A stretch of 64,000 nucleotides of DNA. Origin: Dehalobacterium formicoaceticum (GTDB lineage Bacteria; Bacillota; Dehalobacteriia; Dehalobacteriales; Dehalobacteriaceae). Made by a program: the position numbers and the translations under genes. The stretch covers positions 3,068,501 through 3,132,500 of the forward strand of contig NZ_CP022121.1 in the NCBI RefSeq assembly GCF_002224645.1, read 5' to 3'. Of the stretch, positions 19,513 through 61,775 are shown piece by piece. Positions within the stretch are counted from its first letter, which is position 1, and each line of letters starts with the position of its first letter. The notes below the pieces were generated by a model. It had not been told where the DNA came from. It did no database searches and saw only the letters and a program-made list of their open reading frames with translations.

Positions 19513-19714
19513 GTTTCATTTCCCCCTCGTCTTTTGAAGATATTCCCTTCATAATTCCCATTTTTCATGGTGTCTGAAACAATTATGCGTATTTAAATAG
19601 ATGATTTTCGACGTTATTGAAATAGTTTATTTTTAACATGATGAATTCTTCTTTTCTTCTCCTGTTTTTTTAAAGTATATCACAAATTACACTTGATTAA
19701 AATTGGTTAGTGCA

Positions 19715-19744
19715 TAAACAATCATTGATATAAATGATCGTTTA
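19715..19744. promoter_or_regulatory. Candidate ArsR operator
   Basis: TAAACAATCATT (19715-19726) and AATGATCGTTTA (19733-19744) form a 12-bp inverted repeat with one mismatch and a 6-base spacer. It overlaps a possible -10 box (TATGAT 19743-19748), 33 bases before the ArsR start, and resembles A-T rich ArsR/SmtB sites. Confidence 0.55.
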
Positions 19745-19777
19745 TGATATTCTAAAAAAAAACAACTGAGTGATGAA

Positions 19778-20065
19778 ATGGAAAATTACATCGAAGAGCA
19801 GAACTTTTTTAAAGCCTTTGCAGATGCTAGCCGACTTAAGATAATTGAAGTTCTTTCCTTAGAGTGCAAAAGCGTCAACGAGATAGCGAGGTTGGCGGGT
19901 CTTTCCCAGCCCTTAACATCTCACCATCTAAAGGTCTTGACTAAGGCAGGGATAGCCCGTGCGGAAAGCCGCGCAAGCTTTAACTATTACTGAATAGTTG
20001 ACCCGGTGATCTGGAAGATCATCAAAGACTGTAGATATTTTTTGCTAGCTATTCAACAAAAATAG
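19778..20065 (+). CDS. ArsR-family regulator interrupted by in-frame UGA
   Basis: The frame begins MENYIEEQNFFKAFADASRLKIIEVL and continues through the winged helix (VNEIARLAGLSQPLTSHHLKVLTKAGI) to SRASFNYY. A UGA follows at 19991-19993. The same frame then encodes IVDPVIWKIIKDCRYF and stops at 20063, which completes a normal ArsR length (about 95). Family members usually have Arg or another residue after the YY, so a CGA-to-TGA mutation is possible. A 7-bp hairpin with loop TGGAA begins 12 bases after the UGA, so selenocysteine insertion or other readthrough is an alternative. If read to UGA only, a 71-residue protein with the intact DNA-binding part is made. Confidence 0.7.
20005..20023 (+). 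promoter_or_regulatory. Hairpin downstream of the ArsR UGA (possible SECIS)
   Basis: GGTGATC and GATCATC pair (7 bp, one G-T) around loop TGGAA. The loop starts 18 nt after the UGA and contains GG, which meets the general bacterial SECIS pattern. Confidence 0.4.
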
Positions 20066-20141
20066 AGATTTAATCATTAATCATTTAATCCTCTTATCGA
20101 TTATGCCCACAAAACAAAAAGAAAAAGGAGTGGTGATTGTT

Positions 20142-21560
20142 ATGGTTGAAATGTTAAACAATACTCAGTCGACGGAAAGCTGCTGACCTCCGAAGAAGGA
20201 TGTTGGTCAACACCCTATGGAGACAAATGCTAATACTAAGACTAATACTAAGACTAATGCCATTACTAATACTGAGCACTGTCAAATGTGCGGTCAACCT
20301 CTAACCTATTTAAGTGTGGGCAAAGAATTGACCTGCCATCAATGTGGCAAAACTGAAATCGGCAATATTTATTGTCCTAACGACCACTATATTTGTGACG
20401 ATTGCCACGGAAAAGACCTTTTTGAGGTCATTTTGCAGGTGATTGAAACCACACCGGAAAAGAATCCATTTATGATTGCCGAGGAATTGATGGGTCATGG
20501 ACGAGTGCCCATGTTGGGTTGTGAGAATGCCTGGATTGCCGCCGGATCATTCCTCGCAGCGCTGAAAAACGAAGGAACACTCAAAGTAACCGACGATCAG
20601 ATTCATGAGGCTTTGCAGCGCACGAGAAAACAAGCCCTTGGCGGGTATTGCGGATTAACCGGTGTCTGCGGCATTGCTCCAGCCATGGGAGCCTGTTTTA
20701 GCGTGATATTAGGAGCATCCTGTCCCAAAGACCAGGAAACATCAAAGACCATGAGCGTGGTCGGGGATGTCATTCATGCCATTGCCTCCCATACGGGCCC
20801 ATGCTGCTGCAAGGCTTTTGTCAGGGTTTCCCTGGATCAGGCAGTTGAATACGCCCAAAAGTACTTCAATGTTTCCTTGGAAACCGCAGACAAGGATCTG
20901 GTATGCACCTATGTGACACGCCATCCCCACGGGTGCCGCATGGAGAAATGCCCTTATTATCGGCCGGATGAAACGGCAGAAATTCATTGTCATTCAAATA
21001 ATAACTATTATGCGGAAGAGATACAAAGTTTAAGCAAAATGGAACAACTACAGAAAAAAGCACTGGAATTGGGTGCTCAAAACGCCAAGATCATTCAGAC
21101 AGATACAATTGCCGTTGCAGAATGGGTGCAATTGAAGTGTAAATATGGATGCCCCTTATACAACAAAGATACTTTACATCCTCCATTTGCACCCAGTGCA
21201 GAAGAAACCAGGAAAGTAATTAAAGAATATGATTATGCCCTATTACTTGCCGGCCCCGATGGACCTAAACTATCTCAAAAGGCCATTATGATTGAGCATG
21301 AGGCCTATGCTATAGGATATTATAAAGCATTTGCTCTATTATCATTGCCCTTTGGTACCAGCCCCACTTGACAATCCGACCAAAACACGACTCAGGCTGA
21401 GTCATCCGTACCCCAAGGAAAAAACAAAGATGCCAGACCCTTAATGGAGGCTTGCGGAATTGATGTGTTCAAAACCGCTAGAGATAATGGCTTCCAGATC
21501 GATACAAAAAAAGAAACCTATGGTCAATGGAACTTTTTTGCCTTGGTATTGCTTGATTAG
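20142..21560 (+). CDS. Candidate selenoprotein: DUF5714-DUF2284 fusion with two UGA codons
   Basis: Read through UGA at 20184 and 21369, the gene encodes 472 residues. Order: an N-terminal tail with Ser-Cys-Sec-Pro-Pro (Sec15); a Thr/Asn-rich linker; a DUF5714 domain (about residues 45-275) with paired zinc-ribbon cysteines (CQMCG, CHQCG, CDDCHG), GGYCGLTGVCG and HTGPCCCK; and a DUF2284 metal-binding domain (about 285-470) with LKCKYGCPLYNKD and, after Sec410, RPLMEACGIDVFKTARDNGF. AAAGGAG 11 bases before ATG 20142 is a good start. The next ATG, 20217, has no ribosome site. Sec410 falls at or beside the first cysteine of the C-terminal cluster of DUF2284, and conserved sequence continues for 63 codons after it. 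Conventional reading gives only 20217-21371. The function is unknown; a redox or metal(loid) role is an inference from the cysteines and ArsR. Confidence 0.7.
20198..20214 (+). promoter_or_regulatory. SECIS-like hairpin after the first UGA
   Basis: GG, a bulged A, then TGTT pair with AACA and CC around the loop GGTC. The E. coli fdhF SECIS has GG, a bulged U, TGCA, loop GGUC, TGCA, CC. In both, the loop begins after 18 nt from the UGA. Only the stem bases and the bulge differ. Confidence 0.75.
21389..21403 (+). promoter_or_regulatory. SECIS-like hairpin after the second UGA
   Basis: GACTCA and TGAGTC form a perfect 6-bp stem with loop GGC. The loop begins 23 nt after the UGA and starts with G, within the range of bacterial SECIS elements. 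Confidence 0.55.
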
Positions 21561-21626: not shown

Positions 21627-21791
21627 ATGCCTAAATGCGAAAAATGTGGACTTGAAGTTTCTAATGATGAACCTTATGAAGACAACGGCCAAAAGATTTG
21701 CGAAGATTGTAAGATAGAAGGTATTCAACACCCTGACATTCATCCGTATTTCAGTCGCATCAAGAAATCCAATGAGGAAACATCCGAATAA
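21627..21791 (+). CDS. Small zinc-ribbon-like protein
   Basis: The 54-residue protein MPKCEKCGLEVSND... has CEKCG near its start and CEDC near residue 25, a four-cysteine zinc-ribbon arrangement, and ends in a charged tail. ATG 21627 lies 6 bases after GGAGGA. It follows the DUF5714 gene by 66 bases and is probably in the same transcript. The role is unknown. Confidence 0.65.
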   Translation: MPKCEKCGLEVSNDEPYEDNGQKICEDCKIEGIQHPDIHPYFSRIKKSNEETSE

Positions 21792-23248: not shown

Positions 23249-24952
23249 TTACTGAGCCATGAAGAGAGCGATATCTTCGTCAACAGAGCCGATACCGGCG
23301 ATGCCGAAGTTTTCTACCAGTACCTTGGCCACATTAGGTGATAAAAAGGCCGGAAGTGTCGGTCCCAGGTGAATGTTTTTCACGCCCAGATACAGTAGAG
23401 CCAGCAAAACGATAACAGCCTTCTGCTCATACCAAGCGATATTATAAGCGATGGGTAGATCGTTTATATCTTTAAGATCGAATACCTCTTTTAGCTTCAG
23501 CGCAATCAGGGCCAGGGAGTAAGAGTCGTTGCACTGTCCCGCATCCAATACTCTGGGAATGCCGCCAATATCACCCAAATCCAGCTTATTATATTTATAT
23601 TTGGCGCAACCTGCAGTCAGAATGATGGTATCCTGGGGCAACTTTTTGGCAAAATCAGTGTAGTAGTCTCTGCTCTTCATTCTGCCATCGCAGCCTGCCA
23701 TCACGAAGAACCTCTTTACGGCACCGGATTTCACTGCATCTACCACTTTGTCTGCCAAAGCAAAAACCTGTTCATGGGCAAAACCACCGACGATGGATCC
23801 CGTTTCGATTTCCTTAGGTGCTTTTAGAGTTTTGGCCAGCTTGATGATTTCGGAAAAATCCTTTTTGCCCTGGACATCTGCTTCAATATGCTGGCAGCCG
23901 GGAAAGCCGGAAGCACCGGTGGTGAAGATTCTGGCTTTTAATTCCTCACTTTTCGGCGGAACGATGCAGTTGGTGGTAAAGAGAATCGGCCCGTGGAAGG
24001 ACTCAAACTCCGTTGCCTGTTTCCACCAAGCGTTGCCGTAGTTACCTACCAGATGATCGTACTTTTTGAAGGCCGGATAGTAGTGGGCAGGAAGCATCTC
24101 GCTATGGGTGTAGACATCCACCCCGGTACCTTTGGTCTGCTTCAAAAGCTGTTCCAGATCCGTCAGATCATGGCCGGAAACCAGAATAGCCGGATTCTTT
24201 CTTACACCTATATTCACCTGGGTGATTTCTGGATTGCCGTATTTGGAAGTATTGGCTTCATCCAGCAAAGCCATCACGCTCACACCGTGTTCACCTGTTT
24301 TTAGGGTCAAGGCCACCAGATCATCAGCAGAGAGGCTGTCATCGAGGGTGGCAGCCAAAGCCTGGTAGGTAAAGGCATAGAGTTCATCCTTTTCTTTGCC
24401 CAGGTTTACCGCATGATGGGCATAAGCCGCCAGACCTTTCAAGCCGTAAGTGATTAGTTCTCTCAAAGAGCGTACATCTTCGTTTTCAGTGGCAAGTACG
24501 CCTACTGTGCCTGATTTTTTCAGCATATCCTCTCTGGTATTAACCTCAAAAGTAGCGGCATCATGAAGTTTATACACCACAGCCGGATCAGGAGCTTCGC
24601 TTTTGCCGCCGAAAATTCTTTGGAAAAATCCGCTCTTTGGGGTCTCCACAAAGAGTCTGCCTCTCAGATCATTTCTCATGGCAATCATTTTCTTGATTTC
24701 TTTTTCAATGGCATTTTCATCAAAATTGGCATTGGTTATCGTCATAAACAAGCTGTTAAATACTTGCTGATTTACCTGTCTGAAATCCCTTACATCCAAA
24801 TTTCCTTTAACAACGATTTCCGCAACACCTTTGAGGGTGTAAATTAAAATATCCTGAAGATTGGCCACCTGTTCGTTTTTCCCGCACACGCCCTTCACTT
24901 TGCAGCCGGTTCCCTTTGCGGCTTCCTGACATTGATAACAGAACATACTCAT
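23249..24952 (-). CDS. hcp: Hybrid cluster protein (hydroxylamine reductase / NO reductase)
   Basis: The 567-residue protein has the N-terminal cluster motif C-x2-C-x8-C-x5-C ([21 protein letters not shown]), the class I spacing of anaerobes. Ligands of the hybrid 4Fe-2S-2O cluster are visible in [32 protein letters not shown] and LDAGQCND. Hcp acts in the cytoplasm against hydroxylamine and NO. ATG 24952 follows GGGGAGG. The gene upstream is a Crp/Fnr regulator, and a palindrome is centred at -41.5 of the predicted start, so NO or redox control is likely. Confidence 0.95.
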
Positions 24953-61559: not shown

Positions 61560-61775
61560 GACACCAATGCGTATCGGTGCCTGACAGTGCGGATGTGCAA
61601 GGTTGTGAAATATAGTGGGTGGGAATCCCACCGGGCAAGGTAGACCAACCGCCCGTAGTTAGCCTTGGAGGAAATGGGGTAACTCATTTGTTTAAGCGTA
61701 GGCAGGCTAGGTAGTAGGCTGAAAGCCGAAAGGTTGATATTGCGGGCCGGTGCCTGACACCAACTTATCAACCAT
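61560..61775 (-). repeat. Long R2 repeat, inverted copy
   Basis: On the minus strand it has the R2 core (TTGATAAGTTGGTGTCAGGC, 61775-61748) and GCGGTTGGTCTACCTTGCCC, as in 36665-36870 but in a different order. Outside it, AAAAGTTGACC occurs twice (61498 and 61526). Confidence 0.65.

Follow-up and report, generated by a model that had tools for sequence, protein, structure and literature searches.

A predicted selenocysteine-containing ArsR-family repressor encoded directly before the double selenoprotein gene mbdU in Dehalobacterium formicoaceticum

The stretch of Dehalobacterium formicoaceticum DNA analysed here (the window; 64,000 nucleotides) carries two neighbouring forward-strand genes, arsR and mbdU, whose frames contain three in-frame UGA codons, each predicted to encode selenocysteine (Sec) and each followed by a SECIS-like hairpin (Table 1). 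The first, arsR-Sec (here arsR), encodes a member of the ArsR/SmtB family of winged-helix repressors and is placed directly before mbdU, which encodes a protein with a zinc ribbon and DUF5714 and DUF2284 domains. The mbdU start codon is preceded by AAAGGAG at 20124-20130 and opens the frame MVEMLNNTQSTESC-UGA(20184-20186)-PPKKDVGQHPM, which continues into DUF5714, as the original prediction had described. That prediction had considered a single UGA, and while its Sec assignment at 20184 stands, the second mbdU UGA and the arsR UGA at 19991 had been missed. Past the second UGA the mbdU frame runs for 62 more codons to a TAG at 21558-21560, and the DUF2284 domain is thereby complete. Just 3' of mbdU (21627-21791) lies a gene for a small zinc-ribbon protein of 54 amino acids with weak likeness to the YjdM/PhnA zinc ribbon. 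Elsewhere, the window contains a prismane/hybrid-cluster protein gene on the minus strand (23249-24952) with a Crp/Fnr-like regulator gene beyond it, and a Group II intron domain match (61622-61762; RF02005, 49.9 bits, gathering score 49).

Table 1. Features of the arsR-mbdU locus, with positions numbered from the first letter of the window.
Feature	Position	Strand	Description
Inverted repeat CATAAACAATCATT-gatata-AATGATCGTTTATG	19713..19746		probable operator of the ArsR protein (autoregulation), inferred from position
arsR-Sec, ArsR/SmtB-family winged-helix repressor	19778..20065	+	95 aa with UGA read through, 71 aa otherwise
arsR in-frame UGA	19991..19993	+	codon 72, NYY-U-IVDPVIWKII, predicted selenocysteine
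arsR SECIS-like hairpin GGTGATCT[GGA]AGATCATC	20005..20023	+	loop starts 19 nt after UGA
mbdU, Zn-ribbon/DUF5714/DUF2284 double selenoprotein	20142..21560	+	472 aa with both UGAs read through
mbdU first in-frame UGA	20184..20186	+	codon 15, after Cys14 (SC-U-PP), predicted selenocysteine
mbdU first SECIS-like hairpin GG-A-TGTT[GGTC]AACA-CC	20198..20214	+	loop 18 nt after UGA; one-base bulge, GG/CC
mbdU second in-frame UGA	21369..21371	+	codon 410, DUF2284 part, predicted selenocysteine
mbdU second SECIS-like hairpin GACTCA[GGC]TGAGTC	21389..21403	+	loop 23 nt after second UGA

The mbdU product scores 827.8 bits with the NCBIfam model for the 'metal-binding double selenoprotein MbdU' (NF045648; cutoff 600), over residues 8-472 and profile positions 2-468 of 468, and Pfam detects PF18978 at residues 97-273 (2e-52) and PF10050 at residues 316-471 (1.3e-27). 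MbdU is listed with the motif CU and two Sec in Table 1 of a 2026 review of 119 prokaryotic selenoprotein families and subfamilies (PMC13188914), which credits it to Haft and Tolstoy 2025. With a score above the cutoff, the DUF5714-DUF2284 architecture and two Sec codons, one of them in a CU motif, the window protein is, judged by its sequence, the MbdU already known and does not represent a new family. The original prediction, made without searches, knew of no selenoprotein family with this N-terminus, but one is described, and the novelty of the locus sits in the arsR Sec codon and not in mbdU.

The genome, a single contig of 3,766,545 bp, contains selA, selB and a tRNA-Sec with anticodon TCA within 10 kb, which is in line with a check proposed with the original prediction, while the Rfam SECIS_1 model (RF00031) found no match over the genome, although this model says little about bacterial elements. 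We can give practically no credence to a changed code or a suppressor that would have every UGA decoded as Trp or Cys; no support for such a reading was found, 63 open reading frames of at least 60 codons in the window end in TGA, the arsR gene of Desulfosporosinus lacus ends with a true TGA stop after its internal UGA, and dedicated Sec machinery is present. Sequencing errors or gene decay are just as hard to sustain as the source of these codons: in isolation, three stop codons within 1.4 kb do look like decay, but UGA stands at the same positions in independent genomes from other genera, and this conservation refutes it.

The hairpin described after the first mbdU UGA is present in every detail, although its 4-bp stem is unremarkable alone, since 158 of the window's 2356 TGA triplets reach a score of 4 or more in the same hairpin scan. 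Its significance instead comes from the relatives, most of which keep the GGUC loop with differing stems. We recovered 25 distinct DUF5714 genes whose N-terminus is of the C-[U/C]...GQH type, and in most of them this loop is closed by a stem of 5-7 bp with changed base pairs, for example GATGCT[GGTC]AGCATC, GGTGTT[GGTC]AACACC and GGCGTT[GGTC]AACGCC. The UGA itself is found in 25/25 of these genes, so that of the two features expected of DUF5714 homologues the extended N-terminus is kept, while a Cys form of the N-terminal CU does not occur in any of the 25. Together with the sel genes, the retention of both the extension and the UGA in all DUF5714 relatives with this N-terminus supports the inferred Sec insertion at 20184. 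For the DUF2284 part, a UGA with a hairpin whose loop lies 20-23 nt downstream was found in eight genes (the window's and seven further), and a non-Sec DUF2284 protein (locus L029) has Cys, within GAGPC, at the aligned place. A standalone DUF5714 protein (L041:1420-2205) has the same Cys-Sec N-terminus without DUF2284 and scores 395.7 bits against the MbdU cutoff of 600; such single-Sec standalone proteins are probably mis-started in public annotation.

The arsR product meets membership of the ArsR/SmtB family, scoring 68.6 bits with NF033788 (HTH_metalloreg; cutoff 55) over residues 9-81, a match that spans the UGA, and CzrA-type structures (PDB 6cda/1r1u; 61.8 bits) align across the UGA into their own C-terminal helix. 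The UGA lies at the end of the wing strand and precedes the C-terminal dimerisation helix. Asp84 of CzrA is a zinc ligand, and the predicted Sec72 aligns three residues before it. An AlphaFold model of ArsR (three sequences) was rejected as too poor to place Sec72, with a pLDDT of 67 and the wing modelled as a helix.

With profiles run against 398 genomes of the phylum, 154 genomes of the class to which genome G398 belongs, 83 of the class of Desulfosporosinus lacus and 26 of the class of genome G391, we found 14 Sec-ArsR genes in 12 genomes, with the UGA at the same codon in all. Every match of at least 110 bits had a UGA at the ArsR site, one of them also including its own terminal UGA, and every match of 93.5 bits or less had none there. 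This gap is partly self-reinforcing, as the profile was built from family members; a single-sequence search without a profile likewise ranked the UGA-bearing genes first. The set includes Desulfosporosinus lacus and G+C-rich drafts in which the loci have 61-69% G+C, and its tree has two supported clades, which is compatible with either one or two origins of Sec in the family. Two genomes of the 12 (G465 and G470), both fragmented drafts, yielded no tRNA-Sec, and the matches in them were tRNA-Ser.

Alignment column 72 holds U in the 14 Sec-ArsR proteins and C in a homologue from Ideonella dechloratans, the only Cys homologue found, whereas proteins outside the family mostly have S, R or T. Column 30 is Cys in 15/15 family members, with no Cys among the outside rows printed. 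The Ideonella gene is carried on plasmid NZ_CP088082 and lies in its chlorate-reductase region (L120:2959-3569), where a SHOCT gene comes after it, an arrangement shared with the G+C-rich Sec-ArsR loci. A match on an Acetoanaerobium plasmid was rejected as a Sec-ArsR, being an ordinary Ser form with a CVC motif.

A hairpin follows the arsR UGA throughout the family. The motif TCTGGVAGAT stands at the same place in 14/14 Sec-ArsR genes, with the GGV loop starting 19 nt after the UGA, and stem pairs differ between relatives by compensatory changes (GC to AU, UA to CG). Among 12 distinct sequences the proportion of paired cells is 96.9%, both sides are changed in 9 cells against 2.5 in shuffles, and covariation was 0.348 compared with 0.211 ± 0.026 in shuffled alignments (0 of 500 as high), with far lower values in slid registers. 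When the protein sequence is held fixed, a single arsR hairpin is only mildly unlikely (P 0.05-0.18), and because this test is no more than suggestive we used a pooled synonymous-codon test, in which 77 of 80 helix positions pair; the expectation was 62.7 ± 2.6, and no draw out of 20000 gave more than 73 (p about 5e-5). The ten arsR representatives were taken as independent in this test, and its significance is therefore overstated. Within the window, a hairpin of at least 8 bp by the same rule follows only 0.2% of the 2356 TGA triplets, and when the arsR and second mbdU UGAs are set against the 63 open reading frames of at least 60 codons that end in TGA, they have the best hairpins, ranking first (8 bp) and second (6 bp), respectively. 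Binding of SelB to these hairpins is inferred.

Comparison of arsR genes also indicated coding conservation after the UGA, with dN/dS below 1 in all pairs tested, and in pairs from Dehalobacterium and Desulfosporosinus dS was 0.28-0.56 after the UGA against 1.1 to saturated before it, although counts were small in both analyses. These values bear on whether mbdU alone encodes a selenoprotein, the arsR UGA being an ordinary stop that ends a short repressor of 71 residues and the stretch downstream serving as a leader or RNA element for mbdU. Such an arrangement would still leave the helix-turn-helix within the 71-residue frame, and the longer form is without protein evidence. However, the stretch beyond the UGA shows the evolution of a protein-coding sequence (dN<dS), aligns with the part of ArsR structures (CzrA among them) around the C-terminal helix and also occurs in Sec-ArsR genes that have no adjoining mbdU. 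In addition, the hairpin keeps a constant distance of 19 nt to the UGA, and the Ideonella Cys homologue has neither its motif nor its codons. We therefore regard termination at codon 72 as improbable and favour read-through of arsR with Sec, for which insertion itself is inferred.

A DUF5714 Cys-Sec gene lies next to nine of the 14 Sec-ArsR genes, namely those of the window, locus L002, Desulfosporosinus lacus and genomes G003, G591 (both loci), G600 (both loci) and G391, where the pair is divergent. The Sec-ArsR gene of G634 has no DUF5714 Cys-Sec gene beside it and is instead neighboured by genes for a TehB-like methyltransferase and a SHOCT protein, while in the G+C-rich clade the neighbouring genes encode SHOCT proteins and small proteins rich in Met. 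The TehB-like SAM methyltransferase of G634 (L169:5757-6431) is encoded directly 3' of the Sec-ArsR gene and hints at metalloid methylation as a target. In G591, G600 and G045 the DUF5714 selenoprotein gene is followed by one for a weakly Meth_synt_2-like (methionine synthase/UroD-type) protein (L170:3354-4427; also L172 and L005), which is a possible functional partner of the DUF5714 selenoprotein.

The 65 nt preceding the arsR ATG contain an inverted repeat with 14-nt arms, one mismatch and a 6-nt spacer, for which a role as operator is inferred because its position is typical of ArsR/SmtB repressors. Upstream of the arsR relatives, inverted repeats are weaker and differently placed.

Taken together, we consider it very likely that arsR and mbdU form a two-gene operon with three selenocysteines in which MbdU is under the control of a so far unlisted Sec-ArsR repressor, with a soft metal or metalloid as the probable signal. 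The support is comparative, consisting of the conserved UGA codons, the SECIS-like hairpins, coding conservation beyond the UGA, the Sec machinery, the adjacency of the genes and the one Cys homologue, and there is no protein evidence. In the proposed mechanism, the repressor would bind the palindrome upstream of its own gene and so repress itself, until reaction of Sec72 and the invariant Cys30, its partner residue, with a soft metal(loid) or an electrophile released the repressor and switched on arsR-mbdU; metal-dependent DNA binding is an inference here. In winged-helix proteins, the strand that holds the residues near position 30 pairs with the wing strand ending at position 72, and for this reason Cys30 and Sec72 could be close, which is likewise inferred. 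In MbdU, the Cys-Sec N-terminus, zinc ribbon and Cys-rich DUF5714 and DUF2284 domains probably serve to bind a soft metal or metalloid. What the inducer is can only be inferred; the metal binding of MbdU, the presence of a TehB-like methyltransferase and membership of the ArsR family suggest a soft metal(loid).

Sec insertion could alternatively act as a gate, deciding mainly if the cell makes a repressor of full length that dimerises, and the operon would then read selenium supply without any chemistry at Sec72. The alignment with CzrA is compatible with this, since the UGA stands just before the dimerisation helix and termination would remove that helix, and the target MbdU itself requires two Sec. 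The Cys that replaces Sec in one homologue and the invariant Cys30, however, point to chemistry at the residue, and genes of the second clade adjoin SHOCT proteins, which are not known selenoproteins. While a selenium gate thus remains conceivable, we think it unlikely, and we lean, with some reserve, towards the Sec-ArsR proteins being a new selenoprotein family of DNA-binding ArsR-type repressors that sense a soft metal(loid) or electrophile through Sec72 and Cys30.

Most known selenoproteins are redox enzymes or apparently redox-active, and we know of no earlier selenocysteine in a bacterial transcription factor, so that Sec-ArsR, if the prediction is true, would be the first. A Sec-using repressor would then extend selenocysteine to gene regulation and represent a compact soft-metal sensor, and MbdU, whose role is unknown, would gain a regulator whose inducer should reveal its substrate. 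Sec-ArsR genes are likely annotated as fragments of 71 residues, and the Sec form would thus be missed. Proteins of the FmdB type are small zinc ribbons and differ in this from winged-helix repressors. The FmdB family putative regulatory protein (TIGR02605) is the only selenoprotein in the PMC13188914 table with regulation in its name, and it is not an ArsR. No ArsR selenoprotein was found in that table of 119, in the NCBIfam selenoprotein models or in literature searches, although a mention among the 28 stop-split DCMF gene pairs of PMC6778437 is not excluded.

Compared with known systems, the window MbdU differs in nothing essential from NF045648, sharing the full-length match, the CU motif and two Sec. 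The ArsM/DUF2284 double selenoprotein (NF041536) has a Sec-bearing DUF2284 part in common with it (253.2 bits), but this score is below the cutoff of 575 and the N-terminus is a methyltransferase where MbdU has DUF5714. For Sec-ArsR, the ArsR/SmtB-type metalloregulator TsoR (NF045707) is among the best-matching NCBIfam models (58.5-76.1 bits), although membership of the window ArsR was rejected at 58.5 bits against a cutoff of 115, with relatives at 63-76 bits. The names TsoA/B/C/X/Y denote selenoproteins in the review table (PMC13188914), whereas TsoR is not named as one. With ArsR/SmtB proteins in general (NF033788; CzrA), Sec-ArsR shares by sequence the same winged-helix fold, with the wing and C-terminal helix aligned, but it lacks the CxC metal motif of their classical alpha3 site and instead has Sec72 where most have Ser, Arg or Thr, and Cys30 where they mostly have Glu.
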